Assembly: GCA_002706765.1 (NCBI GenBank)
Contig: PAJV01000035.1
Span: 1-59,927, forward strand
Length of the DNA: 59,927 nucleotides
Direction of reading: 5' to 3'
Source of the DNA: Gimesia sp.
Lineage (GTDB): Bacteria; Planctomycetota; Planctomycetia; Planctomycetales; Planctomycetaceae
A program made the position numbers and the translations under genes. Shown here in pieces: positions 42,023-57,373 of this stretch; the first letter of the stretch is position 1, and each line of letters opens with the position of its first letter. The notes under the pieces are model-generated. The model ran no database searches. It was not told the origin of the DNA and saw only the letters and a list, made by a program, of their open reading frames with translations.

Positions 42023-45000
42023 ATGTTTGATCTCTCCCTGAGACGATTCTCTCAGGCAGGCCTCGCATTCCTGCTGATCACCGCTACCACAGCGGCCTAC
42101 GCTGAATCTCCTGACGCAACATCACCGGAGAAATCCGCCCCCAGCATCGACGTCGATTTCAATCGCGATATCCGCCCCATCCTGTCCAAAAACTGTTTTC
42201 ACTGTCACGGACCCGATGAAGGCACCCGCGAAGCCGAGCTCCGCCTCGACCAGCGCCCCGCTGCCATCGCGAAACTGCCCAGTGACGCCCAGGCAATTGT
42301 CCCCCACAAGGCAGACCAGAGCGAACTCATCCGTCGCATCACTTCCACTGATGAATACGCGGTCATGCCGCCCCCCGAAGTCGGAGAGAAACTGACCGAC
42401 GCACAGATCGCCAAAATCAAAGCCTGGATCAACCAGGGCGCCCCCTACTCAAGACACTGGTCCTTCGTTCCACCCGAACGTCCCCCACTCCCGAACATCA
42501 CTCAACAGAACTGGCCGACCAGTCCCATCGACCACTTCATCCTCGCAAAACTGGAAGCAGCCGGCTTGAAACCCGGCCCGCAAGCCAGTCGCCATACACT
42601 CATTCGCCGCCTCAGCTTCGATCTCCGCGGCTTGCCTCCCACCCAGATTGAAGTCGAGCAGTTTATCAACGACAAATCTCCCGACGCTTACGAAAAGCTC
42701 GTCGATCGCTTCCTCGCTGATCCTGCCTACGGCGAACGCTGGGCCCGGAAATGGCTCGACCTCGCCCGCTATGCCGATTCCAAAGGCTACGGATCCGATC
42801 CTCTCCGCATGACCATCTGGCGTTACCGCGACTGGGTTATCTCCGCGCTCAATAACAATATGCCTTACGACCAGTTCACCCTCGAACAACTGGCCGGCGA
42901 TCTCCTGCCCGAAGCCACGCTCGAACAGCAAATCGCTACCGCCTTCCATCGTAATTCCATGACCAATACCGAAGGTGGAACCGATGACGAAGAATTCCGC
43001 GTCGCCGCCGTCAGCGATCGCGTCGATACCACCATGCAGGTCTGGATGGGCCTCACCATGGGTTGTGCCAAATGTCACACTCATAAATACGATCCGATTT
43101 CGCAGAAGGAATACTATCAGTTCTACGCCTTCTTCAATCAGACCGCAGACAACGATCAACCCACCGATGCCCCCACCATCGCTGCTCCCACCAAAGCGAT
43201 GCTGCAGGAAACCGCCCGCATCGATACCGAACTCGCCGCCCTCAACAAAGTACTGCAGACACCAACCGCAGAACTCGCAGCCGCTCAGCAGAAGTGGGAA
43301 TCCACACTCCAGGCCAAACCCGACTGGCAGACGCTGACGCCACTCGCCGCGACTTCATCCTCTGATAAAACGAAACTTCAGATCCAGGACGACCAGTCCC
43401 TGCTCGCCAGCGGGCCGCCTTCCAACGAAACCTATACCATCGAAACCGAAGTCGATCTCAATACCCTCAAAGCCCTGCGACTCGAAGTCCTCCCCGATCC
43501 CGGCCTGCCCGCCCAGGGGCCCGGCCGCGCCGCAGATGGAAACTTCGTCCTCTCGGAAATCAGCCTCACCAGCAAACCCGTCGCAGCAGACACTCCCGTA
43601 CAGGGACAGTTCCTCCGCATCGAACAGCAGGGAACCGCGAAACAGATCCTCTCGCTCGCCGAAGTCCAGGTCTTCCAGCACGACCAGAACATCGCCGTTC
43701 AGGGAACCGCCACCCAGTCCAGCGTTGCCTATGACGGCCCGGCCAGTCTCGCCATCGACGGCAATACCGACGGCCACTTCTTTAATGCCAAATCAACCAC
43801 CCATACCAAAACCGAAGTCGCCCCCTGGTGGGAACTCAAGTTGAAAGCAACCACACCGCTCGACCGCGTTGTCATCTGGAACCGCACCGACGGGACCGGC
43901 GAACGGCTGGCCAACTTCAAAGTCAGTCTGCTCGATGCCAAGCGCAATGTCGTCTGGCAGACCATCGTCGCCGACTCCCCCAAACCGTCAGTCACCCTGC
44001 CTGTTTCGAACGAGCGATCCATCCCCGTCCGTCGGGCCTTCGCTTCCTTCTCGCAGTCAGGTTTCCCGGTCACCGCCAGCATCAACTCCGCCAGCAAAAA
44101 CCAGAAAGGCTGGGGCATCGCACCGCAGTCTGGCAAACCCAACTCTGCCTACTATATTCTGGAAAACAAACCCGCTGCCGACACCGGCAAACAGCGTCTG
44201 CTCATTTCGCTGTCACACAACTATAAAGATCCTCAATACGCCCTCGGTCGATTCCGCCTTTCCTCTACGACAGAATCCAAACTGGAACCCCGACTCGCTG
44301 TCAGCGATGACCTGCTCGCCATCGTCGACACAAAACCCGAAGACCGCAGCCCTGCCGACCAGAACAAACTCGCCGCCTACTACCGCAGCATCGCTCCTGC
44401 TCTCAAATCAACCCGCGATCAGATCGCGAAACTGCAGAAAGCCAAACCCGTCTACCCGCAGCTCCCCGTCATGCAGGAACTGCCCGTCGACAAACAGCGC
44501 GAAACCCACATCATGGTCCGAGGCAGCTTCCTCACTCCCGGCGATCGCGTTGAACCCGCTGTACTCAGTTCCTTCAATCCGCTCCCCAAAGACGTTCCCG
44601 ATAACCGTATCGCCGTCGCCAAATGGCTCACCGATCCCCAAAACCCGTTAACCGCTCGCGTCGCCGTCAACCGTTTCTGGTCTCAACTGTTCGGCAAAGG
44701 TCTCGTCGTCACCGAAGAAGATTTCGGCACCCAGGGTGAACTCCCCAGTCATCCGCAGCTCCTCGACTGGCTCGCCACCGAGTTCGTCGGCAACGGCTGG
44801 GACCGCAAAGCCCTCCTCAAAACCATCGTCATGTCCAGCACTTACAGGCAGGATTCCACCACCCTGCCCGTGCACCTGGAGAAAGATCCCGATAACCGTC
44901 TGCTCTCGCGGGGTGCCCGCTATCGTCTCGAAGCCGAAATGATCCGCGACCAGGCACTCGCTCTAAGTGGCCTGCTCAACCGAAAGGTCGGCGGTCCTTC

Positions 45001-45541
45001 CGTTTACCCCGTTCAACCCGAAGGCATCTGGCGGGCCGCGTTCAACGGTCAACGAACATGGGCCACCAGTAAAGATGAAGACCGCTTTCGTCGCGGACTT
45101 TACACCTTCTGGCGCCGCACCGTCCCTTATCCGTCCATGGCCACCTTCGATGCGCCCAGTCGCGAAATCTGTACGATCCGACGCATCAGCACCAACACAC
45201 CGCTGCAGGCGATGATCACCATGAACGATCCCGTCTTCATCGAAATCGCCCAGGCCCTCGGCGAACGGCTCTTCCTCGCGGCGGAGACACCCCGTGCCCG
45301 CATCGAATATGGTTTGAAACTCTGCCTGGTTCGTCCACCGCAGCCCGAACAGATTGAACCGCTGCTGAAACTCTACGAATCGGAACTCGCGTTTTACAAA
45401 GCGCATCCCGCAGAAGCCGCCCAGCTCCTGGATAACCCGCTGAAACCGATTCCCGATCAATACGACAAAGCCGAGCTCGCTGCCTGGACGATCATCGCCA
45501 ATGTACTGCTCAATATGGATGGTGTGCTCACCAAAGGATAA
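42023..45541 (+). CDS. exported cytochrome c-type DUF1549/DUF1553 (PSCyt1-PSCyt2-PSD1) protein
   Basis: 1172 residues with a signal peptide (about 10-27, ending AAYAE). Order: PSCyt1 domain with CFHCH (58-62); DUF1549 (PSCyt2), beginning near SPIDHFILAKLEAAGL and holding a second CAKCH (348-352); an inserted discoidin/F5-8C-like domain (about 530-660: AIDGNTDGHF, WWELKL, VVIWNRTD); then DUF1553 (PSD1, LTARVAVNRFWSQLFG, GLVVTEEDFGTQG, RLEAEMIRDQAL). Each CxxCH could hold covalent heme. These planctomycete and verrucomicrobial proteins are linked to extracytoplasmic glycan breakdown, but the reaction is unknown. Codon use is strikingly GC-ending. The DUF1501 gene follows 3 bp after the stop. 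Confidence 0.93.
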   Translation: MFDLSLRRFSQAGLAFLLITATTAAYAESPDATSPEKSAPSIDVDFNRDIRPILSKNCFHCHGPDEGTREAELRLDQRPAAIAKLPSDAQAIVPHKADQSELIRRITSTDEYAVMPPPEVGEKLTDAQIAKIKAWINQGAPYSRHWSFVPPERPPLPNITQQNWPTSPIDHFILAKLEAAGLKPGPQASRHTLIRRLSFDLRGLPPTQIEVEQFINDKSPDAYEKLVDRFLADPAYGERWARKWLDLARYADSKGYGSDPLRMTIWRYRDWVISALNNNMPYDQFTLEQLAGDLLPEATLEQQIATAFHRNSMTNTEGGTDDEEFRVAAVSDRVDTTMQVWMGLTMGCAKCHTHKYDPISQKEYYQFYAFFNQTADNDQPTDAPTIAAPTKAMLQETARIDTELAALNKVLQTPTAELAAAQQKWESTLQAKPDWQTLTPLAATSSSDKTKLQIQDDQSLLASGPPSNETYTIETEVDLNTLKALRLEVLPDPGLPAQGPGRAADGNFVLSEISLTSKPVAADTPVQGQFLRIEQQGTAKQILSLAEVQVFQHDQNIAVQGTATQSSVAYDGPASLAIDGNTDGHFFNAKSTTHTKTEVAPWWELKLKATTPLDRVVIWNRTDGTGERLANFKVSLLDAKRNVVWQTIVADSPKPSVTLPVSNERSIPVRRAFASFSQSGFPVTASINSASKNQKGWGIAPQSGKPNSAYYILENKPAADTGKQRLLISLSHNYKDPQYALGRFRLSSTTESKLEPRLAVSDDLLAIVDTKPEDRSPADQNKLAAYYRSIAPALKSTRDQIAKLQKAKPVYPQLPVMQELPVDKQRETHIMVRGSFLTPGDRVEPAVLSSFNPLPKDVPDNRIAVAKWLTDPQNPLTARVAVNRFWSQLFGKGLVVTEEDFGTQGELPSHPQLLDWLATEFVGNGWDRKALLKTIVMSSTYRQDSTTLPVHLEKDPDNRLLSRGARYRLEAEMIRDQALALSGLLNRKVGGPSVYPVQPEGIWRAAFNGQRTWATSKDEDRFRRGLYTFWRRTVPYPSMATFDAPSREICTIRRISTNTPLQAMITMNDPVFIEIAQALGERLFLAAETPRARIEYGLKLCLVRPPQPEQIEPLLKLYESELAFYKAHPAEAAQLLDNPLKPIPDQYDKAELAAWTIIANVLLNMDGVLTKG

Positions 45542-45544
45542 ATC

Positions 45545-47002
45545 ATGAATCTCAAACAACAACAGCTGCAGGCAGTCACCCGACGCCACTTCCTCGCCCA
45601 GGGTTCCACCGGTATCGGCTCCCTCGCGCTGGGCGCCCTGCTCGCCGAGAACCAGCCCCTCGCCGCCAGCACGCCCGCCAATCAAGATGCCGAACTCCCC
45701 GCGCATCGTCTGCCGACCAAAGCCAAAAGCGTCATCTTTCTGCACATGGCCGGCTCGCCTCCACAGCAGGAACTGTTCGACTATAAACCCGAGCTCATCA
45801 AGCGCAACATGCAGCCCTGTCCCGATTCGTTCCTCAAAGGTCGTGGCTTCCCCTTTATCAAAGGGCACCCCAAGATGCTGGGCACGCCCTACAAATTCAA
45901 ACAGTACGGCGAAAGCGGAACCTGGATGAGCGAACTGCTCCCTAACTTCCAGCAGGTCGCCGACGAAATCACCGTCATCAAATCGATGCACACCGACCAG
46001 TTCAACCACGCGCCCGCCCAACTGTTCCTCTACACTGGCTCCCCCCGTTTCGGCGGCGCCTCGATGGGTTCCTGGATCACCTACGGACTCGGTTCTGAAA
46101 ACAAGAACCTGCCCGGCTTCATGGTCCTGCTCAGTGGCGGCAGCGATCCCAGTGGCGGAAAAAGTCTCTGGGGCAGCGGCTTCCTCCCCTCCGTCTATCA
46201 AGGCGTACAATGCCGCACCACCGGCGACCCCATCCTTTACGTCTCCAACCCCAAAGGCATCAACCGCGATGTCCGCCGCCGCAGCCTGGATGCGCTTAAA
46301 TCGCTGAATGAATTCGAACTCAAACAGTTCGGCAATCCCGAAACCCTCACCCGCATCAACCAGTACGAACTCGCGTTCCGCATGCAGATGTCGGTTCCCG
46401 AAGCCGTCGACCTCGCCAGCGAAACCAAGGAAACCCACGAACTGTATGGCACCACCGGCGCCGCCCCTTCGTTTGCCAACAACTGTCTGCTCGCCCGTCG
46501 CATGGTCGAACGCGGCGTTCGCTTCATCCAGCTCTTCGACTACGGCTGGGACATGCACGGCACCAGCGCCGGCAACGACCTGATCACCGCCGTCCCCAAC
46601 AAGGCCAAAGACATCGACCGCCCCCTGTACGCGTTGATCTCCGATCTCAAACAGCGGGGACTGCTCGATGAAACGCTGGTCGTCTGGAGTGGCGAGTTCG
46701 GCAGAACCTCCATGAACGAAGAACGCAACGGCTCCAAGTTCCTCGGACGCGATCATCACCCCCACTGCTACACCATCTGGATGGCCGGCGGAGGCATCAA
46801 GAAAGGCTTCACCTACGGACAGACCGACGAACTCGGTTACTTCATCGCCGAAAACAAAGCCAGCGTCCGCGATCTGCAGTCCACCATCCTGCACCTCACC
46901 GGCTTCGAAGCCCGCAAATTCAAATTCCCCTACCAGGGACTCGACCAGCGCCTCATCGGCCCCGCCGACGAAGACCACCTGCTCACAGACATCCTCGCCT
47001 GA
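45545..47002 (+). CDS. Tat-exported DUF1501 (sulfatase-fold) protein
   Basis: 485 residues. The N-terminal TRRHFLAQG and a hydrophobic stretch ending LALGALLAEN form a Tat signal. DUF1501 proteins have a sulfatase/alkaline-phosphatase-like fold: FLHMAGSPPQQELFDYKPEL near the start, RFIQLFDYGWDMHG, LVVWSGEFGRTSMNE, and HPHCYTIWMAGGG with likely metal ligands. It is the usual partner of DUF1553 proteins and the pair is one operon (TAA, 3 bases, ATG). Extracytoplasmic action on a sulfated or phosphated glycan is plausible but unproven. Confidence 0.93.
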   Translation: MNLKQQQLQAVTRRHFLAQGSTGIGSLALGALLAENQPLAASTPANQDAELPAHRLPTKAKSVIFLHMAGSPPQQELFDYKPELIKRNMQPCPDSFLKGRGFPFIKGHPKMLGTPYKFKQYGESGTWMSELLPNFQQVADEITVIKSMHTDQFNHAPAQLFLYTGSPRFGGASMGSWITYGLGSENKNLPGFMVLLSGGSDPSGGKSLWGSGFLPSVYQGVQCRTTGDPILYVSNPKGINRDVRRRSLDALKSLNEFELKQFGNPETLTRINQYELAFRMQMSVPEAVDLASETKETHELYGTTGAAPSFANNCLLARRMVERGVRFIQLFDYGWDMHGTSAGNDLITAVPNKAKDIDRPLYALISDLKQRGLLDETLVVWSGEFGRTSMNEERNGSKFLGRDHHPHCYTIWMAGGGIKKGFTYGQTDELGYFIAENKASVRDLQSTILHLTGFEARKFKFPYQGLDQRLIGPADEDHLLTDILA

Positions 47003-47312: not shown

Positions 47313-47597
47313 TCACAACGGTGCCATATCAGCACGTATCGCCACAGCAATTGTCGCATAAGCTCTTGACCTGCCCATGCCCTTCGAGAAAATCCACCCA
47401 CTGGCACAACATTTTTTTCCGTCTCCCTCAAAGATTCAAAGCAAGGTTTCATTTCCATCAAGACCTTCCATTCAGTACAGGATCATTCAATAACAGAAAC
47501 TGGAGCGAATCACGTTTACCATAACGTTTCTTAATTCGAATTGTTGCTACCTGTGTGGGACAACCGGAGCTGATACCCTTCGGCTAATCAGTCATTA

Positions 47598-47688
47598 GAC
47601 TGTGTCCAGTTTTACTGTAGCGTCTCCAGGGTCATTTGAACCGAGTATAATAGATTGAGAGACGCTATGGTTAAATGTGATGCACTCT
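47598..47688 (-). repeat. dispersed about 85-bp repeat, copy C (best inverted arms)
   Basis: Read on the minus strand this copy runs TTTAACCATAGCGTCTCTC, CTCGGTTCAAATG, GAGACGCTACAGTAAAACTGG, ACACAGTC. TAGCGTCTC and GAGACGCTA are perfect 9-bp inverted arms about 40 bases apart, so the element can form a hairpin. It matches copies A and B in the opposite orientation. Confidence 0.8.
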
Positions 47689-47696
47689 AGAAAATC

Positions 47697-47720
47697 AGCC
47701 GCACGGCGTTAGCCGCGGTT
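47697..47720. repeat. REP-like palindromic sequence
   Basis: The 24 bases starting AGCCGCACGG contain two small overlapping palindromes (GCCG-CA-CGGC and CGGC-GTTA-GCCG) and end in CCGCGG. Short G+C-rich palindromes like this are often dispersed in bacterial genomes; no second copy is in this window. Confidence 0.4.
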
Positions 47721-47897
47721 AACACCGATATCGGGAAAGCTGACATAAAGTGAATCATAAATCAGAAGTTCAATTCAAAAGCAGGGACTGTCCCATGTGT
47801 CAGCCCGCAGAACCAGCAATGAATCCCCATTCAACAACAAAGAATTCAACCGGCCTCGCTCCGCCATCGATCTGCCAGCAATCAGCCCCCCGTGTGG

Positions 47898-47919
47898 CAC
47901 TGTTGGCTCGCCAACAGTG
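47898..47919. repeat. perfect hairpin in the gene-poor spacer
   Basis: CACTGTTGG and CCAACAGTG are perfect 9-bp arms around CTCG. No T run follows and no gene ends nearby, so it looks like a dispersed palindrome and not a terminator. Confidence 0.55.
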
Positions 47920-48339
47920 ATCGAGCAACCAGCCCCCACCAGCAATAAAATGGCTAACGCCGAATAAAATTCGACCCGAGCATCGCGAGCAGGAAACGGA
48001 CAGCAAAATCACCCCTGAGCCAAAACCATCGCCGACAAGCTGCAATCTGCCCCAGGCAGAAAAATAACCGACCCATCATACAGAACGGCACCACCCACGC
48101 GAGGTGAAGATCGGGAAGTACAACAGCTTCAAATCTGAAGCTTGCCGTATATATCTCTATATCTCAAATAGTGAGATGTCACTTTCCTGCAATAATCCAA
48201 TACTGAAACACAAGCCACATGTATACATATACACTCTCACTTGTCTGGCACTTTCTAGATTTTTGAAATACAAAATCAAGATAATGAATATCAAACAGAT
48301 GAGATTTGGATTAATTTAATTCGTTACGAAACATCTAAG

Positions 48340-48486
48340 ATGGATAAAATATTAAGCAGCAAGAATTATTCTTGCATTAAGTGCCACGATTATGACAATA
48401 ATAGATATTGTACATTCAAACACTTCAAGCAATTAAATTTGAAAGCCGACCTAATATTATATATTGGTGCACTAAATTTATTCTGA
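48340..48486 (+). CDS. candidate 48-residue zinc-finger-like protein
   Basis: An ATG at 48340 opens 48 codons ending in TGA at 48484-48486, 18 bases before the AAA+ ATPase gene and on the same strand. The product has Cys12, Cys15, Cys24 and His28 (C-x2-C-x8-C-x3-H, including CIKCH), a pattern that could bind zinc, then a hydrophobic C-terminal third. The ribosome site is weak (CTAAG), but the ATPase gene in this AT-rich island also lacks a clear one. A chance ORF of this length is quite possible in AT-rich DNA, so the gene call rests on position and the Cys/His pattern. Confidence 0.3.
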   Translation: MDKILSSKNYSCIKCHDYDNNRYCTFKHFKQLNLKADLILYIGALNLF

Positions 48487-48504
48487 AATTAATGAAAACC
48501 CAAA

Positions 48505-49491
48505 ATGGCAACTGCTGAGCAAATAAAATCATTAGTACGCAGCCACACTGAAGGAGATGACCAGCGTTTCCATTCAGTGATCATGCAGATTGCAGCACAT
48601 GCTGCTAAAGCTGGCAAAAGTAACTTAGCTCATGAACTTCGTGATCTCGTAGATGATGCTAAACGTGAACGAGAACGAATCTCTATCCGTCCCGTTCCAT
48701 TAGCTCGCCCTAAAGGAGAACTTGCAGGGCTTGCAACAGCCTCTTATCCAAAGCTTCGATTAGCCGATATGGTTCTTAATTCGAATCTCGAAGATACACT
48801 CAATAAAGTTCTCACTGAATACCGCCAAAGTGATCGACTTCGATCTTATGGACTTTCACCAAGAAGGAAACTTCTACTTGTTGGTCCACCTGGGTGTGGA
48901 AAAACCATGACTGCTTCTGCATTAGCAGGTGAACTAAGTTTGCCTTTGTTATCAGTACAACTTCATGCCGTGATTACAAAATATATGGGGGAGACCGCAG
49001 CAAAACTTCATTTGCTATTTGATGCAATGCTTGAAACAAGAGGAGTGTATTTCTTTGATGAATTCGATGCAATTGGCGGACATCGGAAATCTGTTAATGA
49101 TGTTGGTGAGATGCGACGTGTACTAAATTCTTTTTTGATGTTTTTGGAACGCGATGACTCAGAGAGCATTATTGTCGCAGCAACAAATCTAGTTGAAATG
49201 CTTGATCCAGCTCTCTTTCGCCGATTCGATGAAGTTATTAAATACTCTCCTCCGGACCGCCCCGCCCGAGAGAATCTAATAAAAAACAAATTGTGTATTT
49301 TTGACATAAAAAGACTTGGCTGGAAGAAAATTCTAGATACTTCAGATGGGTTAAGCCATGCTGACATTACTCGCGCCTGTGATGATGCAGCAAAAGAGAT
49401 GATTCTGAGTGATAAAAAAACCATTCCAACATCGATATTGTTCGATGCAATTCAAAGACAAAATAAACTCCTCGTTACAAGATCGGTTTAG
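48505..49491 (+). CDS. ietA: AAA+ ATPase of an ietAS-like module
   Basis: 328 residues, soluble. The N-terminal helical region (1-80) is followed by one AAA+ domain: Walker A GPPGCGKT at 127-134, Walker B VYFFDEFD at 181-188, sensor-1 Asn228 in AATN, and Arg239-Arg240 in LFRRFD as arginine-finger candidates. KYMGETAAKL is a classic pore/second-helix segment of FtsH/spastin-type AAA proteins. The subtilisin-like protease gene starts 9 bases after the stop. This pairing matches IetA-IetS, described for plasmid incompatibility in Agrobacterium and later listed among anti-phage systems. The gene is clearly AT-richer than its surroundings, which suggests horizontal acquisition. The symbol is by analogy. 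Confidence 0.82.
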   Translation: MATAEQIKSLVRSHTEGDDQRFHSVIMQIAAHAAKAGKSNLAHELRDLVDDAKRERERISIRPVPLARPKGELAGLATASYPKLRLADMVLNSNLEDTLNKVLTEYRQSDRLRSYGLSPRRKLLLVGPPGCGKTMTASALAGELSLPLLSVQLHAVITKYMGETAAKLHLLFDAMLETRGVYFFDEFDAIGGHRKSVNDVGEMRRVLNSFLMFLERDDSESIIVAATNLVEMLDPALFRRFDEVIKYSPPDRPARENLIKNKLCIFDIKRLGWKKILDTSDGLSHADITRACDDAAKEMILSDKKTIPTSILFDAIQRQNKLLVTRSV

Positions 49492-49500
49492 CTTTGTACG

Positions 49501-51993
49501 ATGGCCAAATTCCGTCATTTCACAATTCGAGGAACAACCAAAAGCAGTCCTTACCTATCAACAGGCGGGGGACCAAAAGATTTTAAACTCCCTCCACGTG
49601 ATAATCCGATAGAGCATGCTAAATCGCTTTTAAGTCAATTACATGAAGCTGAAACTCAAACACAAGAAGCAGTCAAGCTTGCACAGAGTAAACCTGACGG
49701 AATCACATTATCTTTCTGGAGCGCGCCAGGATTTAGTGTTTGGATAGAACAATTTGAGAATTTAAGCTCAGGAATAGAACTGCTAAATGTAACTACAGAA
49801 GGTGACTCCGAAATTGCAACTGTTTTTATTCCAGACAAATCTATTGGGCACTTCGACCGACTACTAAATGAATATCTTCAATTTCCTGATATAGCAACAC
49901 CCAAAGGAAATCGAAAAAATCGAAGATTTGCAGATAGTGTTTCCCAAATACGAGCTTCTGCGGTCCGCGAATTCTGGACAGATCATGAGCACTTACTTCC
50001 AAAATCAGGAGTACCCATTTGGTGGGAAGTATGGGTGCGAACCGGCAAATCTGACAACACAATTGACGACGCATTTTCGAAATTTCTTGTTGCTGCCGCA
50101 TACACAAAAATAAAGCTCGGACAACAAGTCGTGCACTTTCCTGAACGAACTGTTGTTCTTGCTTATTGTACTCTTGAGGATTGGGCAGACTCATTAGAAC
50201 TTTTAAGTCATATCGCGGAGCTCCGCCGAGCCAAAGAAATACCAACGGACTATGTAGAATTACAGGCACGTGACCAAATTGAGTTTATTAATTCTTTTCG
50301 TGAACGGATAATTCCGCCTCCAGAAAATGCACCATCAGTATGCCTGTTAGACACTGGAGTGAATCGGGAACATCCATTGTTGGAACTTGCGCTAGATGAA
50401 AGCGATTGGAAATCTGTCAATCCTAACTGGACTCCTGCAGATATTCATCCTGAACAGCATGGTACTGCAATGGCAGGTCTTTCGTTATATGGTTGTTTGA
50501 CAGCGTACTTAAATGGAACTGATTCTTTATCTCTAACACATCGGTTGGAATCAGTAAAAATCTTCTCCAGTATTCCACATGAACCGGAAAATTATGGAGC
50601 AGTTACGATTGATGCAATTGCACGGGTAGAAATTGAAGCACCTTCAAGAAAGCGAGTAGTCTGTCTCACGATTCTCGCAGATGGTCGTGATGGAGGTAGA
50701 CCATCTGCATGGTCTGGAACTATTGATCAAATATGTTCTGGAGCACTAGATGAGGATAGAGAGCACAGACTTGTTATTGTTGCAGCCGGAAATTTAAGTC
50801 GCGAGGCTCGCCTAGATTATCCAAATGGAAACCTAACATCTTTTGCAATTCATGATCCTGCACAAGCATGGAATGCATTGACTGTAGGTGCCTGCACAGA
50901 GAAAGTTCACATACATTCTCAAACTTATCATGGGTGGAAACCACTTGCCAAAAAACCTGGGACTCTTAGTCCCTGCAGTACTACATCAATGACATGGGAC
51001 TGGAAAGGGAGCCCAGTTAAACCTGATATAGTATTAGAAGGTGGCAATTCAGCGATTGATCCTTCAGAAGGACACGTTGAAACGATAGATGACCTTGCAT
51101 TGCTCACGACGACTCTAGATCGGTCTGGCCGTCTATTAACCACGACAGGAGAGACTAGCGCTGCAACAGCTCAAGCTGCTAGATTTGGGGCAATAATCCA
51201 ATCACATTATCCGAACTTCTGGCCTGAGACAATAAGAGGTTTGATTGTCCATTCAGCCAGGTGGACACCTCAAATGTTAGAAGAATTCCCACCTCAGGAG
51301 CGTGAATCTCGATTAAAATGTTATGGGTATGGGGTACCTGATCTAGATCGTGCTATTTATAGTACCGAATCTGTTGCTCACATGGTTGTTCAGAGTTCAT
51401 TACAGCCATTTAGAAAGAAAGGCAATGAGATCCATCCAAATGAAATGCATCTTCATCCTTTACCTTGGCCTCGTGACGTACTTGAAAAGCTCGCAGAATA
51501 TCCTGTGACTCTCCGTATCACTTTGTCTTATTTCATCGAACCAAGTCCAGGAAGACGAGGATGGGGACGAAGGTTTCGGTATCAATCTCATGGTTTACGA
51601 TTTGATGTAAAAAGGCCGACCGATGGTGATACTGAATTTGTACGCAGAATTAATAGAGCTGCTTGGGAAGATTCAGAACAGCGTCCCAAGTCAAGCAGGG
51701 AAAGCCGTCGATGGACACTTGGAAATAATTTACGTACTCGGGGTAGCATCCATTCAGATTCATGGGTCGGTACAGGAGCTGAATTGGCGAACTGTGGATT
51801 AATCGGCATTTATCCAATTACAGGTTGGTGGAAGGAACGTGCCCATTTAAACTGTTGGGATCGACAAGCACGATATGCCCTTATAATCTCACTAGAAACG
51901 CAACCTGAAAATACCCTATTCCCTATAGACACAAACTTATATAGTGCGATTGAAAATATAGTCAAAATCCAGCCCGAGATTGAGATCTGGTGA
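49501..51993 (+). CDS. ietS: subtilisin-like (S8) serine protease of an ietAS-like module
   Basis: 830 residues with no signal peptide, so it acts in the cytosol. The N-terminal 270 residues are family-specific and may contact the ATPase. The S8 catalytic domain has Asp284 in LLDTGV, His320 in QHGTAMAG, the oxyanion Asn431 in VAAGN and Ser553 in GETSAA, so the triad is complete. The Ser motif reads GETSA instead of the usual GTSxA. A C-terminal beta-rich region (about 640-830) follows. Such proteases paired with an AAA+ ATPase (ietAS-like) are thought to be kept inactive until triggered, then to harm the cell or invader. It is AT-rich like ietA and probably co-transcribed. No inhibitor propeptide is evident. 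Confidence 0.85.
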   Translation: MAKFRHFTIRGTTKSSPYLSTGGGPKDFKLPPRDNPIEHAKSLLSQLHEAETQTQEAVKLAQSKPDGITLSFWSAPGFSVWIEQFENLSSGIELLNVTTEGDSEIATVFIPDKSIGHFDRLLNEYLQFPDIATPKGNRKNRRFADSVSQIRASAVREFWTDHEHLLPKSGVPIWWEVWVRTGKSDNTIDDAFSKFLVAAAYTKIKLGQQVVHFPERTVVLAYCTLEDWADSLELLSHIAELRRAKEIPTDYVELQARDQIEFINSFRERIIPPPENAPSVCLLDTGVNREHPLLELALDESDWKSVNPNWTPADIHPEQHGTAMAGLSLYGCLTAYLNGTDSLSLTHRLESVKIFSSIPHEPENYGAVTIDAIARVEIEAPSRKRVVCLTILADGRDGGRPSAWSGTIDQICSGALDEDREHRLVIVAAGNLSREARLDYPNGNLTSFAIHDPAQAWNALTVGACTEKVHIHSQTYHGWKPLAKKPGTLSPCSTTSMTWDWKGSPVKPDIVLEGGNSAIDPSEGHVETIDDLALLTTTLDRSGRLLTTTGETSAATAQAARFGAIIQSHYPNFWPETIRGLIVHSARWTPQMLEEFPPQERESRLKCYGYGVPDLDRAIYSTESVAHMVVQSSLQPFRKKGNEIHPNEMHLHPLPWPRDVLEKLAEYPVTLRITLSYFIEPSPGRRGWGRRFRYQSHGLRFDVKRPTDGDTEFVRRINRAAWEDSEQRPKSSRESRRWTLGNNLRTRGSIHSDSWVGTGAELANCGLIGIYPITGWWKERAHLNCWDRQARYALIISLETQPENTLFPIDTNLYSAIENIVKIQPEIEIW

Positions 51994-52049
51994 TCCGTAG
52001 AGGAGCAGAAAAGGAAGCAAATAAATGCTTCCGCATGACAGCATCAAAA

Positions 52050-52095
52050 GGGAGCAGGTATTGATTATTTGACTCCTGCCCCTTTACCCCCTTCC
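52050..52095 (+). repeat. hairpin-forming dispersed repeat, copy 1
   Basis: GGGAGCAGG, then TTGATTATTTGA, then CTCCTGCCCCTTT. It aligns base for base with 54270-54315. The arms can pair (GCAGG with CCTGC) and a T-rich end follows, so it may also end ietS transcription. It marks the right edge of the AT-rich island. Confidence 0.6.
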
Positions 52096-52136
52096 TTTTC
52101 AACGACAGTCTAACGCACATCACAAGGATGGTTACC

Positions 52137-53084
52137 ATGAAGTACATCGATCGCATTTGCTCTCTGAGTGTTATTCTGATGATGAACTGCGTGGTGTTCG
52201 CTGCTGTCAGTGATGCTGATGAGCCTGACATTGCTGAATTGAAGCGGGCGATCCCGGTGCTTTCGCCGGAGAATGAGGACTTGAACAGTTTTTACTTCGT
52301 CGCAGAATCCGTGATACCGTACGGTGTTCCGACGGCATTTGAAGCCTGCTGGTCGCGCGCAAGCGGTTTCGGATACGTGCTGGTGGATCAGCTTGGCTAT
52401 CCGATGTTGTTCGTCGCTGAGAAACAGATGCTGCTTTGTGATGCCCTGCAGTCGCAGGTGATTCTGTGGAAAGATGTCTCCCCGAATGTCCTGATACAAA
52501 GTAAGAATCGATACCTGACTGTAAATCTGGGATTTAAGAGCAAGCAAAAAGAAAATTTTTTGGTTGACGTGCCATCCTTCGTTTCGACAGCAAAGACAGA
52601 ACCAGATCTGAGCCGTGTCAACGAAACCGACTGGAAGCTGACCTATAACTTCGACAAAAATGCCCAAGTGGTCTACCTGTTTCGAGTGGATCGAGAAATC
52701 GCGTTCAAAAGCGTACTATTGATGAGTCAACAACAGCCACTGATTACCATTCGCAACGTTGTGATCAATCAGCCTGTTCCCGAACGACTGATGAAGTTCC
52801 CTGACAAAAATGTGCTTGCTGCTGCAGTGACCGTCGAGGAATCGCCTGAGAAACCACCTGCTGAATTGGGAGAGGCATTGGGAGAGGTGTTTGACAAAAC
52901 TCTTTCTGCCACGCGTGCACTGGCGATCCCAGCTGCGATTCAGGATACCAGATTGCGCCGATTACCATTTACGTCCGACACCGACTGGGAGGAAGTCGAA
53001 AAGAATCACAAACGCATCGGCGGCAAGTTGAGAGACTTTCTGAGAGTGGATATCAAAGACCGGGTGGTCTTGCCTCTGCAGTAA
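52137..53084 (+). CDS. exported protein of unknown function
   Basis: 315 residues from ATG 52137, chosen because AAGGA lies 8 bases ahead. A signal peptide (hydrophobic 8-22, ending CVVFAAVSDA) is followed by a mixed alpha/beta sequence without recognised motifs. The C-terminal part is charged, with PEKPPAELGEALGEVFDKT. I recognise no family. It starts about 40 bases after a hairpin repeat and converges on the YrhB-like gene. Confidence 0.65.
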   Translation: MKYIDRICSLSVILMMNCVVFAAVSDADEPDIAELKRAIPVLSPENEDLNSFYFVAESVIPYGVPTAFEACWSRASGFGYVLVDQLGYPMLFVAEKQMLLCDALQSQVILWKDVSPNVLIQSKNRYLTVNLGFKSKQKENFLVDVPSFVSTAKTEPDLSRVNETDWKLTYNFDKNAQVVYLFRVDREIAFKSVLLMSQQQPLITIRNVVINQPVPERLMKFPDKNVLAAAVTVEESPEKPPAELGEALGEVFDKTLSATRALAIPAAIQDTRLRRLPFTSDTDWEEVEKNHKRIGGKLRDFLRVDIKDRVVLPLQ

Positions 53085-53147: not shown

Positions 53148-53633
53148 TCATTTCACATCTTTTTGTCGGATTTCAACTACTGCCCCGCGTTCCGACAGGG
53201 CAGCGGCCACGGGTTGTAATGACGTAAGGGACCCCGCGGCTATAATGGCCGGTACTGTTGCCATCTGCTGGCGGGTTTCAACGGCTGTCCAGCCTTTATA
53301 ATCACGCAGGAAGCGATATACAGCTGTTGTGTCGGTGCCAGGATCGGTGAGCAACAGTTCGACGATCGGCCACTGATCGGCGCGCCAGACTGACCTTGCG
53401 CTGGTCTGTATCTTTCCCGAAAATCGGTCGACCGAAATACACCAGGCGCCACTCCGCAGGCAAGGTTGTCCGGTCGACTGGTACGGCTCCATGGCGGGCT
53501 CAAATATCCAGCCCCACTGATATTCGTGACTTAAGTCGTCAACAATCACGTACGCCTCGTGAGGATCGAGTTGATCCGCTTCCGCGTCAGCAACACGCTG
53601 TGCGAGTTCCTTCGCGGTGGCGTATTCAATCAT
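53148..53633 (-). CDS. YrhB/Imm35-like immunity protein with L7/L12 C-terminal-like segment
   Basis: 161 residues, soluble. The N-terminal 90 resemble the YrhB/Imm35 immunity fold: AYVIVDDLSHEYQWGWIFEP and a DRFSGKI segment. The last 60 or so (LLLTDPGTDTTAVYRFLRDY, then VAAALSERGAVVEIRQ) look like the C-terminal domain of ribosomal protein L7/L12, a combination also seen in such immunity proteins. Members protect against polymorphic toxins, but no toxin gene is adjacent, so it may be an orphan. The family call is by pattern recall. No ribosome site is visible before the ATG. Confidence 0.55.
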   Translation of the reverse strand: MIEYATAKELAQRVADAEADQLDPHEAYVIVDDLSHEYQWGWIFEPAMEPYQSTGQPCLRSGAWCISVDRFSGKIQTSARSVWRADQWPIVELLLTDPGTDTTAVYRFLRDYKGWTAVETRQQMATVPAIIAAGSLTSLQPVAAALSERGAVVEIRQKDVK

Positions 53634-53779
53634 GGGAAAATCGCTTTCTATTCACTCTTCACTTTATACTAGACTTGCGTCGAAGTAATCGTACCAGGAT
53701 TTTCAAATCCATCCAGGTTACCAGGCATCTAGCTGGAGTTAGATTAACAGCAGCGTGCAGCAACTTGTTAGATGAAAAC

Positions 53780-54232
53780 TCACCAAAACTTCCACCATGC
53801 CTTTTTATCAATAGCAACCTCTTTATTCACAGCGAGGTGGGATACAGGAACGTAATGTGGTGAGGTCCCATCATAAGTAACCATAACCAACAGAGCATTG
53901 TTAACGTCAGCGCTTTTAATTGCATTAGCGTACGACATAAGACCTGCAAAAAATGAAGCCGCTCCAATTTCTTCCAGCACTTGAAGCGCAGTACCTTGAT
54001 CGGGAAAACTGACCAGGGCGACACCAGGCGACTCGGGCCAATCACGAGATAACATAACTCCCTGCTCGTCAATGGCCACCCAAATGTTCTTTTCCGTAAG
54101 CTCACACAAAACTCGATCGTGCGCCAAGTCAAGCTCAGCATCTGAACCTGCATGGACGACGGCTTTGAGTGCCTCGTGGCGCGCCCATGATATATAGCCA
54201 CCGCTTTCAGATATTCTTTCTAAAACATTCAT
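53780..54232 (-). CDS. small protein of unknown function, weakly SseB-like
   Basis: 150 residues. The segment LCELTEKNIWVAIDEQGVML and VALVSFPDQGTALQVLEEIG has the spacing of SseB-type domains, which occur in secretion-related and immunity-like proteins, but the match is weak. No signal peptide or membrane segment. It is one of several small, isolated minus-strand genes in this accessory region. Confidence 0.4.
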   Translation of the reverse strand: MNVLERISESGGYISWARHEALKAVVHAGSDAELDLAHDRVLCELTEKNIWVAIDEQGVMLSRDWPESPGVALVSFPDQGTALQVLEEIGAASFFAGLMSYANAIKSADVNNALLVMVTYDGTSPHYVPVSHLAVNKEVAIDKKAWWKFW

Positions 54233-54267
54233 TTTCTGCGATCACACAACTTATTAAAAAGGATATA

Positions 54268-54315
54268 GAGAGGTCAGGAGTTGATTAAACGAATCCTGCC
54301 CCCTTTTCGTCTCCC
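54268..54315 (+). repeat. hairpin-forming dispersed repeat, copy 2
   Basis: It aligns with 52050-52095: AGGTCAGGAG, TTGATTAAACGA, ATCCTGCCCCCTTTT. CAGGA with TCCTG can pair and a T run follows. It lies between two minus-strand small genes, so it might act as a terminator on the plus strand or as a mobile repeat. Confidence 0.55.
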
Positions 54316-54337
54316 ACATGCTTGTGATTATCCATTA

Positions 54338-54925
54338 CTACTTTAGTTTGTATCCGCACTCTAAGCACCAGTTTCGAAATTTTGGTAGTGCTTCGATGTT
54401 GGCATTCATTGCAATTGCAGTTCTCGCAATCTCTTGTGCTATCATCCTACAGCAGGTGCGAAGTGTACTGATGGAGTATTCTTCATCACTCATATTACGT
54501 GTTGGTGCCCAATCAGGCGTAATGATGTGCGTTAGTCTAATCTGCTTTCCTGAGCGGAAAAACTCAAGCAATTGCTCTTCCCCTTGAGTCGCGATATCAA
54601 TTCCAAAAACAGATGAAGCATCATCAGTATTAAGCCACTTCATTAGAGACGGTAATTGCTCAAGACAATAAAGTATAGTCGATGATGAAGTGAAGTTTAA
54701 TGTATTCGTACTCGAAGCTCTGATTAATAACTCATGTGTACTATACCTTACCATCCAGTCACAAATCACAGATAAGATCGCTGGTGCATAATTTGTGATA
54801 TTTGAATGAGCAAGTGCATCCAGGGTATCTTCGCAAAGTGGCAGACCTTCCAGTGGTTTCATTGCATTCAAAAAAAGTAAAAAGGGGCCTTCGTTGTTTT
54901 TCATTATATCTTCGCTGGTTTCCAT
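54338..54925 (-). CDS. small protein of unknown function
   Basis: 195 residues from an ATG with AAGGGGAAG about 7-16 bases ahead. The sequence is helical, with several Cys and a serine/threonine-rich middle (SSTNTLNFTSSSTILY), and ends CLECGYKLK. I see no signal peptide, membrane segment or recognisable family. It is AT-richer than the core genes, in line with recent acquisition, and stands alone between two repeat-bearing gaps. Confidence 0.5.
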   Translation of the reverse strand: METSEDIMKNNEGPFLLFLNAMKPLEGLPLCEDTLDALAHSNITNYAPAILSVICDWMVRYSTHELLIRASSTNTLNFTSSSTILYCLEQLPSLMKWLNTDDASSVFGIDIATQGEEQLLEFFRSGKQIRLTHIITPDWAPTRNMSDEEYSISTLRTCCRMIAQEIARTAIAMNANIEALPKFRNWCLECGYKLK

Positions 54926-55041
54926 GGTAGAACTTCCCCTTACTTAAAGAAGAGGTATAAGGAATCAGCCCCCGATTCCGTCTCCTGTTCAGGCAAGAAG
55001 GATCGTAGAGAAAGTCAGTTCCCAATATTTACTCACTCACT

Positions 55042-55671
55042 TCACACAATAAACCGCACCCAATGTTCTTCCGATACAATGGCAAGACCAGTTCCACGTT
55101 CCTGGAGTGCGACGGCCTTTTCGATCTTTCTGCCATGGGTGGAATGGATCCAGTCGGAACTGCCGACTAAGCCGATGACCAGGAAACTGGTGTCCCTGGT
55201 GGGAGAACTCTTCAGGCTGCCATTACGAGCCAGGATCAGCGACTCACACTGCTTCCGGGTTCCCGTCACGAACTTACCGGTCAGACAGAAAATGCGTCCC
55301 TCAAAATCGATTTCAGGATCTGGCGTCGTCAGCGGGAGCGACGTTGACATCGAATTGACATTCTCGCGCAGCGATGGTTCGCCGGTCAGGTCCATCAACG
55401 TCTGCAGCAGTTCTTTCTGTTCTTCGACATCAAGCACATTGTCTGCCAGCATCTCTTCGATTCGTTTGTAAAGCACATTCGCCGGCCAGTGCTCGGAGAT
55501 CTCCTGATTGTTTCTCAGCCAGTTCTGCAGAAACTCCACTTCAAACTGAGTGACTTCTCCGTCCGCCAGTACCCCTTTACAGAGGCCAATCAGCTCATCA
55601 ATCTTTCTGTCATTCAACCGCGCGTCATTAAAAGTCCGGTTGAGCGGCTGCCCGTGCGCGTCTCGATTCAT
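55042..55671 (-). CDS. BRCT-domain protein with helical TerB-like N-terminal region
   Basis: 209 residues from ATG 55671, which has a G-rich ribosome site just ahead. The N-terminal part (about 15-100) is helical: RKIDELIGLCKGVLADGEVT resembles the TerB-like fold. The C-terminal 90 form a BRCT domain of the DNA-ligase type: FEGRIFCLTGKF, a Thr/Arg-rich segment, SFLVIGLVGSSDW and ISEEHW-like end. BRCT domains bind phosphopeptides or DNA ends. This combination is seen in small stress-related or accessory proteins of unknown role. The frame extends to 55809 but the added residues look non-coding. Confidence 0.68.
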   Translation of the reverse strand: MNRDAHGQPLNRTFNDARLNDRKIDELIGLCKGVLADGEVTQFEVEFLQNWLRNNQEISEHWPANVLYKRIEEMLADNVLDVEEQKELLQTLMDLTGEPSLRENVNSMSTSLPLTTPDPEIDFEGRIFCLTGKFVTGTRKQCESLILARNGSLKSSPTRDTSFLVIGLVGSSDWIHSTHGRKIEKAVALQERGTGLAIVSEEHWVRFIV

Positions 55672-55865
55672 TGTGGCCCCCCGATCCTGGTTGTATAGTA
55701 CAGAGAATGAATGTTCAATTGTGAACAGCCAGATGCGCAGATTCAAGCGCAAGCCTAGAGAATTAAGGAAATCAGCCCCCGTCGTTGAATCCGCTTCGTT
55801 TTTTGTCACGCGATCAATGATACGGGAGAGTTGATCTCATTAAGTTATCACCAGGAGTACTGACC

Positions 55866-56087: not shown

Positions 56088-56161
56088 CGCGGGCAGCAGA
56101 ACCGTTCGAACGGTCACACGGCAAACACGTCGAGACCGCGGGCCGACACATGGGACGGCCC

Positions 56162-57373
56162 CTACTTTGGGGAAGCGACCGGGCCGACGTCTTCCGGTTT
56201 CAATTGCTTGAGAAGTCTCTTTCCGGTGCGGCGGGTGTTTTTGACTGTCACATCTTTCGGCAGCAGCGTGCGCGAGCGGCTGCCCAGGCCGTGGCCCATG
56301 ACGAATTCTTCGCCTGCGTTGTCGATCAGTGTGTTGCCGTCGATGAGTACGTTTTGGACCTGCGCGTGTTGATGCAGTTTCGGGTCTGGCACGCCCGCGC
56401 TCAAGGCAATCGCGCCGTCGATCCGGTCGCCGACCCCTTCGATATGATTGCCGATGATCTGGTGCCCTGTGCCGACAACGCGAATGCCGCCGGAACGCCG
56501 GTCGCCGTCACCCAGGATCAGGTTTTCGCGAACGATGCAGTTGTTGCCGTGCCGCAGTGTCAGAGCGCCGGCACAGCCGACGATCGTGTTCCGCTCGTAG
56601 ATATTGTCGCACGACTTGTTGGAGATGAGTTCAATTTCACCGTCGCAGTTTTCGAACAGGTTTTCGGCGACCACACAATGTGCCGACTTCAGCGAGAATT
56701 CGCTGGTGCCGATCCGCAGGGCCTCGAAGCCGTTGCCGTCTCCCCGTGCCATATCGACGAAGTGATTGCCTGTGATGCGATGCGAGCCGACTTCCCCTTC
56801 TCCCACCAGCCAGACGACCAGCATGTTTCCCGAATGGTTCTTGCCGGCTAAGCGGCAGTGATCGACGCGGTGATGGTGTCCGTACAGGCTGAGCCAGGGA
56901 TAGCGGACGTCGACCTCAGCCGGATTATAGTTTTCAATCGTGCAGCGGGTCACCCGGTGATGCGAACCGGCCACGCGGATCACGTGCCCCGACTTCAGGC
57001 TCCCGTTCTTAAAGGTAAAACCATCAAGCACACCATAAGCGCCATGCAGTCTGAGCGAAGACTCACCCGTCCACGCGACCTGGGAACGCACGGTGACCGG
57101 TTTCTCAGGCGTTCCCGTGAGAGTCAGTTTCAATTCGACGTCATGCCAGTCAGCGCCGACGATGGTGATGATATCCCCCGGCTGAGCCGACTCCGCAGCC
57201 TTCTTTAACCCGGACGGCGTTTCCACACGAAGCTCTTCCGCATTCGCGATGCCAGGACAGGCTGACATAAATAAGACGAGAGACACCAACACGCCCCGGG
57301 TTGAGTGAAGAAAGAACGCTGGTTCACTCTCTGTCGAACGAGTCGAGGCTGGCACTCGATGTTGTTTTTTCAT
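56162..57373 (-). CDS. PL6-like exported beta-helix lyase (alginate lyase/chondroitinase B family)
   Basis: 403 residues. A signal peptide (hydrophobic about 27-45, ending GIANAEE) follows a long polar start. The rest is a right-handed beta-helix with GSGLKKAAESAQPGDII, GAYGVLDGFTFKNG, NGFEALRIGTSE and repeated N-x-x-x-N-ladder turns, as in poly(beta-D-mannuronate) lyase/chondroitinase B (PL6). The expected role is depolymerising alginate-like or glycosaminoglycan-like polysaccharide outside the cell. It seems short for the family, which often has 460 or more residues, so the C-terminus may be trimmed. No clear ribosome site. It follows the TIGR03067 gene by 28 bp. Confidence 0.75.
   Translation of the reverse strand: MKKQHRVPASTRSTESEPAFFLHSTRGVLVSLVLFMSACPGIANAEELRVETPSGLKKAAESAQPGDIITIVGADWHDVELKLTLTGTPEKPVTVRSQVAWTGESSLRLHGAYGVLDGFTFKNGSLKSGHVIRVAGSHHRVTRCTIENYNPAEVDVRYPWLSLYGHHHRVDHCRLAGKNHSGNMLVVWLVGEGEVGSHRITGNHFVDMARGDGNGFEALRIGTSEFSLKSAHCVVAENLFENCDGEIELISNKSCDNIYERNTIVGCAGALTLRHGNNCIVRENLILGDGDRRSGGIRVVGTGHQIIGNHIEGVGDRIDGAIALSAGVPDPKLHQHAQVQNVLIDGNTLIDNAGEEFVMGHGLGSRSRTLLPKDVTVKNTRRTGKRLLKQLKPEDVGPVASPK

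Follow-up and report, generated by a model that had tools for sequence, protein, structure and literature searches.

Two adjacent genes in a Gimesia genome, encoding an AAA+ ATPase (IetA) and a subtilisin-like protease (IetS), raise the question whether they constitute an IetAS module and, if so, how such a pair would act. The genes are located in contig PAJV01000035.1, whose 59,927 nucleotides are referred to here as the window; the source genome comprises 7.9 Mb in 78 contigs. Judged by sequence comparison, the locus is an IetAS pair of the broad family that falls outside the curated anti-phage groups. By analogy with published homologues and from the anatomy of both proteins, it probably represents an acquired module in which a protease toxin is restrained by an ATPase antitoxin.

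Family membership was investigated with profile searches, in which PADLOC matches were judged by E-value and not by PADLOC's own score cut-offs. Four IetA profiles matched the ATPase (best E 7.7e-72, profile positions 2-323 of 374) and five IetS profiles matched the protease (best E 7.3e-34, profile positions 73-736 of 795). IetS profiles also matched all 36 members of alignment A3, which consisted of the window protein and 35 fetched relatives. Near full-length matches were obtained with two PHROGs families, both annotated as being of unknown function: 3757 with IetA residues 1-320 (E 1.3e-92) and 3964 with IetS residues 2-806 (E 1.6e-38). Scores far below the cut-offs of the NCBIfam IteA and IteS models placed the locus in the broad IetAS family as a diverged member.

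Both reading frames were intact and separated by 9 bases. GC content was 0.40-0.44 in all four 1-kb bins between 48 and 52 kb of a scan of the window, as compared to 0.58-0.61 at 42-47 kb and 0.49-0.50 at 52-54 kb; the bin at 54-55 kb was low as well (0.43). GC content at third codon positions (GC3) was 0.28 for each of the two genes, vs 0.37-0.78 in ten other genes compared.

In IetA, a Walker A motif (GPPGCGKT, residues 127-134), a Walker B motif (FFDEFD, residues 183-188) and an RRFD motif (residues 239-242) were found, and the protein matched Pfam AAA (E 5.4e-30). Its layout comprises a helical N-terminal part (approximately residues 4-59), followed by the AAA module (approximately residues 76-328). 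Conservation was counted in 122 IetS and 123 IetA sequences, with a few records present twice. The IetS set consisted of 107 of 130 fetched loci that passed filters, the window, nine further genome contexts and five divergent pairs, and the IetA set additionally included genome G005. Lys133, Asp185, Glu186, Asn228, Arg239 and Arg240 were kept in 123/123 IetA sequences. Residues Y160-M161-G162 form a candidate pore loop, which we take to be pore loop 1 by analogy with PAN and FtsH; its three positions held F or Y in 122/123, M, L or F in 123/123 and G in 123/123 sequences. These features suggest that IetA is a classic AAA ATPase of the threading type, resembling FtsH and PAN. It differs from FtsH, PAN, 26S Rpt and p97 in being a separate protein of 328 amino acids with a helical N-terminal part of its own, and in having an S8 protease as its neighbour instead of a metalloprotease or a 20S chamber.

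IetS matched Pfam Peptidase_S8 over residues 277-611 (E 4.5e-48) and contains the active-site residues Asp284, His320, Asn431 (in AAGN) and Ser553, all four of which were kept in 122/122 sequences. Other positions did vary, with E240 kept in 119/122 and R242 in 113/122. No hydrophobic N-terminal stretch was detected by hydropathy analysis, the best 12-residue Kyte-Doolittle mean being -0.34, vs 2.51 in the adjoining open reading frame (ORF) orf318. In the structure model, an N-terminal tail precedes a less regular alpha/beta part (approximately residues 67-152) and a beta-alpha-beta-beta-alpha-beta part (approximately 173-243), after which the S8 domain (approximately 277-620) and a C-terminal beta domain (approximately 621-800) follow.

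The best Foldseek match to this model was ProN-Tk-SP with its propeptide present (668 columns, E 3.9e-17, root-mean-square deviation 22 A). Entry 9ues_B, apparently the ProN-Tk-SP enzyme without propeptide, matched over 574 columns (E 4.3e-13, deviation 9 A). The size of both deviations indicated that domain placement differs between the IetS model and the ProN-Tk-SP structures. With a second structure aligner, only IetS residues 262-621 were spanned by at least a fifth of the rows and the N-terminal part was barely covered. Among 36 IetS members, no Pfam propeptide match was found, so that sequence gives no support for propeptide homology. The model gives hints of a propeptide-like fold ahead of the protease domain, and gating of such a built-in inhibitor by IetA would be speculative.

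These results agree with most of what an earlier note, made from the letters of this DNA, had described. The IetAS-like identity was borne out by the match of both proteins to PADLOC profiles, the order of the genes and the conserved residues; the absence of any ietAS profile match, which the note had named as counting against that identity, is not what the PADLOC search gave. ORF coordinates reproduced the 9-base spacing of the two genes, while bin GC and GC3 bore out the AT-rich island. Motifs and the Pfam AAA match likewise confirmed a complete Walker A/B ATPase, and the residues and Peptidase_S8 match an S8 protease with intact triad, including the numbering of Ser553. The predicted lack of a signal peptide is consistent with the hydropathy of the IetS N-terminus.

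The two genes are coupled. IetA was located directly 5' of IetS, in the same order as in the window, in 121 of 130 fetched IetS loci. In seven of the nine exceptions, the IetS frame started at most 42 bases from the end of the locus; the two others were an IetS fragment 299 bases from a locus end (L188) and an IetA overlapping an over-long IetS ORF call (L086). There was no clear orphan IetS among the 130 fetched loci. This adjacency, together with the profile E-values (7.7e-72 and 7.3e-34), excluded chance resemblance. The 121 intergenic distances included three overlaps of 23 to 95 bases and eight gaps of 39 to 840 bases, all others falling between -8 and 33. Tree distances of IetA and IetS were correlated across 75 pairs (Mantel r 0.741; largest value in 999 permutations 0.176), and the two trees had 47 of 72 splits in common.

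A fixed third component was sought and rejected, as no partner within 6 kb was common to most of 120 ietAS contexts. After filtering for length and adjacency, 107 of the 130 fetched loci remained; together with the window and 12 further genome contexts they made up this set, in which some records occurred twice. The largest neighbour clusters encoded HsdM (nine contexts), a resolvase-type recombinase (eight), HsdR (seven) and an N6/N4 DNA methylase (six), followed by HsdS, UvrD helicase and two integrase clusters with five contexts each. Clusters were named from one example each and counted with no background rate control, and IMG/VR contigs favour recombinases. Smaller clusters of three to four contexts included a 169-amino-acid frame just 5' of ietA in L093, L094 and a single record present as both G011 and L090. 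None of the window's own neighbours belonged to any neighbour cluster in the 120 contexts.

The distribution of the pair is accessory, patchy and mobile-like. Of the 59 genomes searched, 14 had an IetS relative (E<=0.001), the source genome being counted among them. Within the genus, 6 of 17 genomes matched, again counting the source genome, strongly in G000, G003, G005 and G011 and weakly in G002 and G016. In genome G009, an IetA-like gene of divergent sequence lies next to an S8 gene; this pair escaped the IetS query and was noticed on inspection of the ORFs, which raises the count to 7 of 17 genus genomes with some such pair. This very divergent pair (L040:2373-5772) has an IetA C-terminal extension that resembles a helix-turn-helix by eye and could function in DNA binding or autoregulation. 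The IetA query alone is unspecific, since it also picks up other AAA ATPases: at the same threshold it matched 59 of 59 genomes. At an identity of at least 55%, IetA was found in four of the 17 genus genomes, own included. The possibility that the pair belongs to the core genome was rejected on these counts for IetS (6/17) and IetA (4/17), and the ubiquity among relatives that the earlier note had named as evidence against its reading was therefore not observed.

At E<=1e-60, IetS was matched by 18 of 294 Planctomycetota genomes, own included, and by 15 of the 280 with a completeness of at least 90% and no more than 5% contamination. Among the matches listed for contigs of public genomes, 592 candidate stretches were examined and 585 proved to be relatives, the 80 best of which were retained. 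Chromosomal copies in planctomycetes are therefore uncommon, but not exceptional. The earlier note had called such a copy an unusual context, a view not supported by the counts of 14/59 and 18/294 genomes, by the spread over 10 phylum-level groups or by a survey reporting that just 15% of such pairs are plasmid-borne (excerpt of PMC5006074). An IetS relative was found in 487 of 72,556 plasmid records, 341 of them predicted to be conjugative and one from a planctomycete (Paludisphaera borealis, 42,519 bases). A phage-borne origin was also considered and rejected: only 2 of 50,697 phage records matched IetS, vs 50 loci on IMG/VR contigs, which can include mispredicted host DNA. GC3 of the pair was 0.26-0.35 in G000, G003 and G011, 0.44-0.46 in G018 and 0.58-0.78 in six other planctomycetes. 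Identical IetA sequences occurred in two metagenome-assembled genomes labelled Planctomycetaceae (L135) and Rhodobacteraceae (L140); both isolate names start with S141, which makes recent transfer less likely than a binning error.

Homologous pairs have been studied in several hosts. Excerpts of the respective papers report that SgiT of SGI1 lowers transformation of E. coli 100- to 1000-fold and that SgiA rescues it (PMC5006074), that the sgiAT promoter is not under SOS regulation in Salmonella (PMC9927553), and that pTiC58 and SGI1 are stabilized by IetAS and SgiAT, respectively (PMC5006074, for pTiC58 by way of its citation). A mycoplasma AAA-ATPase/subtilisin pair is described as a functional toxin-antitoxin system in a paper that also cites an earlier finding that deleting only the ATPase is lethal (excerpt of PMC8562856). 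IetAS on Pf phage has been associated with phage resistance by a mechanism that was still called unknown in 2025 (excerpt of PMC11878078), in agreement with the statement in the earlier note that trigger and target are poorly understood. Among the titles and abstract openings listed in searches of open-licence literature, none solves how IetAS works.

The window pair resembles the PADLOC IetAS system, including that of pTiC58, in that an AAA ATPase is followed by an S8 protease and in that profiles matched over 83-86% of their length. Unlike the pTiC58 pair it is chromosomal, and its IetS is approximately 39-40% identical to copies on Agrobacterium and rhizobial plasmids. SgiAT, by description rather than by sequence, consists of the same kinds of protein with the ATPase gene first, a protease toxin and an ATPase antitoxin, in an accessory island of a chromosome; SGI1 is, however, integrative and mobilizable, whereas no integrase was found in the seven window proteins scanned. 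The mycoplasma pair TA132/3, also likened by description and not by sequence, is an operon of a 353-amino-acid AAA-ATPase and a 757-amino-acid subtilisin-like protease that acts as a functional toxin-antitoxin system, but originates from a different phylum.

That the locus is an acquired module with a protease toxin restrained by its ATPase is argued for by the intact genes, fixed order, family membership, invariant active sites and patchy occupancy of a variable site. It is further argued for by homologues in which the protease is toxic alone and the ATPase neutralizes it, and by their association with phage resistance. In the proposed sequence of events, IetS would stay cytosolic, with both its own N-terminal region and IetA limiting its activity. 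An IetA ring would thread polypeptide via the aromatic pore loop and use ATP to hold IetS in a closed or remodelled state. An invader would disturb IetA by sequestration, by loss of fresh synthesis or by shut-off of ATP or expression, upon which IetS would be freed, cleave cellular proteins and arrest the infected or segregant cell. The outcome would be phage defence as well as maintenance or exclusion of mobile elements.

Several observations weigh against this interpretation. The window pair missed the NCBIfam anti-phage equivalogs for IteA (NF042959, 195.5 vs 510 bits) and IteS (NF042956, 51 vs 900 bits), and the nearest relative of its IetA is approximately 60% identical, so that function is transferred over a distance. 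No sigma-70-like promoter match was found in the leader upstream of ietA, and a promoter scan of positions 47900-52300 yielded a single match, on the minus strand within ietS, vs a mean of 9.0 in shuffled sequences. The structure models represent single chains and not an IetA-IetS complex, and in the literature examined no experiment on a planctomycete IetAS copy was found. The native sgiAT operon, moreover, reportedly gave no post-segregational killing (excerpt of PMC5006074).

In a more specific form of the same idea, which we put forward tentatively and consider rather doubtful, IetAS would be an ATP-gated subtilisin. A propeptide-like inhibitor would be fused ahead of an IetS protease that is never conventionally secreted or matured, and the IetA threading ring would pull or stall on this N-terminal region and thereby set the protease shut or open, so that an invader stopping or diverting IetA fires the protease. 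If true, this would be a case of bacterial immunity in which an ATPase mechanically operates a zymogen switch. The main competing explanation, which appears unlikely, is a two-gene ATP-dependent protease in which IetA mainly selects and unfolds invader proteins (phage or plasmid replication proteins) and passes them to IetS, in the manner of PAN and the 20S proteasome or of the two halves within FtsH, and toxicity of IetS alone is a side effect of the lost gatekeeper. The subtilisin fold has an open active-site cleft and not a closed chamber, which argues against such a machine, and no docking motif was identified, though none was searched for systematically. Homologues in published assays, moreover, behaved as a simple toxin and antitoxin (excerpts of PMC8562856 and PMC5006074).

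A role in addiction only, with the pair persisting by stabilizing its carrier element and having no defence function in the host, would fit the plasmid records given above, including the majority predicted to be conjugative and the planctomycete plasmid, and the stabilization of pTiC58 and SGI1 (PMC5006074, excerpt). We nevertheless regard it as quite improbable, since the window pair lies in a chromosomal accessory segment with no integrase or replication protein in the seven proteins scanned (48.5-55.8 kb), and since the native sgiAT promoter failed to cause post-segregational killing in the same source. It is very unlikely that the acquired pair is a decayed or silent passenger that has ceased to be expressed or useful and is being lost. 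The variable site, odd composition and missing promoter match would be expected of such a passenger, but its frames are intact and every tested catalytic residue is kept at approximately 50-60% identity to the nearest relatives, which points to purifying selection along most of the branch.

IetAS-type pairs are widespread, spanning 10 phylum-level groups among 76 tree rows and hundreds of plasmids. The locus is ordinary in kind: it is a diverged addition to an already known family whose mechanism is open in the literature. The planctomycete lineage that it adds combines an ATPase whose aromatic pore loop is nearly invariant with a subtilisin that may carry a propeptide-like part; mutants in these features could separate "antitoxin" from "unfoldase" models.

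Table 1. Coordinates of the ietAS locus and of surrounding features in the window.
Feature	Position	Strand	Description
ietA	48505..49491	+	328 aa, ATG start, classic-clade AAA+ ATPase
ietS	49501..51993	+	830 aa, ATG start, cytosolic-type subtilisin-like protease
AT-rich leader 5' of ietA	48156..48504	+	homology to sister species G008 stops at 48155; promoter presumed
Variable segment	48156..55589	no strand	no detectable homology at this site in sister species G008, which has other genes
orf318	52128..53084		318-aa ORF just 3' of ietS
Four ORFs	53148..55809	-	
Inverted repeat, left arm	47778..47808		31 bases
Inverted repeat, right arm	56138..56168		31 bases
Unit of approximately 230 bp	47478..47781		single in the window

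The left flank of the locus (42023-47002), whose genes are presumably a DUF1553-DUF1501 set, was matched in the single-contig congeners G008 and G014 (7.8-7.9 Mb), from which a chromosomal location of the locus is inferred. The DUF1501 protein was 96% identical in both. Homology to G008 extended, with gaps, up to 48155 and returned at 55590, and homology to G014 extended up to 47974 and returned at 56181. Ten of the ORFs listed at the corresponding sites of these genomes were scanned for domains; the genes of G008 include one for an HSP90-like ATPase, and in G014 one gene encodes an rve integrase-core domain. The former (L041:11209-13791) encodes 861 amino acids and gave partial matches to PADLOC TmtA (best E 2.1e-12, for residues 9-121). 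The site could be a broader hotspot of accessory genes, perhaps of defensive ones.

In G005, ietA is located approximately 3.0 kb past the DUF1501 gene, vs 1.5 kb in the window. G005 IetA paired with that of G003 (support by Shimodaira-Hasegawa-like approximate likelihood ratio test, SH-aLRT, 99) inside a set with support 98 that lacks the window's copy. The apparent presence of two different IetAS lineages near the same chromosomal neighbourhood is suggestive of an insertion hotspot, from these two cases. The fork that holds the window's IetA was unresolved; in the IetS tree, from which G005 was left out because its ietS is split over two contigs, the window grouped with G003, G011 and others in a set of 13 rows at a support of only 44.

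No Rfam match and no regulatory RNA were found in the leader, and the seven proteins scanned between 48.5 and 55.8 kb included neither an integrase nor a replication protein. The protein encoded by orf318 has a hydrophobic N-terminus; Pfam gave no match for it at E 0.1, and the 16 other genomes of the genus contained no relative at E<=1e-5. One of the four minus-strand ORFs gave a very weak match to Imm35 (E 0.074) and one a weak match to BRCT (E 0.0028), while the remaining two had no Pfam match.

The variable segment is flanked by an inverted repeat with 87% complementary arms 8.3 kb apart. Its 20-base core occurred in nine copies in the 7.9-Mb genome at up to two mismatches, vs none for a reversed control. 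At up to four mismatches, the repeat was absent from the fetched stretches of G008 and G014; similar copies were present in those of G001, G009, G012 and G010. It is possibly a dispersed mobile repeat. The unit of approximately 230 bp at 47478-47781 was found in four to five tandem copies in G014 (L042, approximately 4130-5170).

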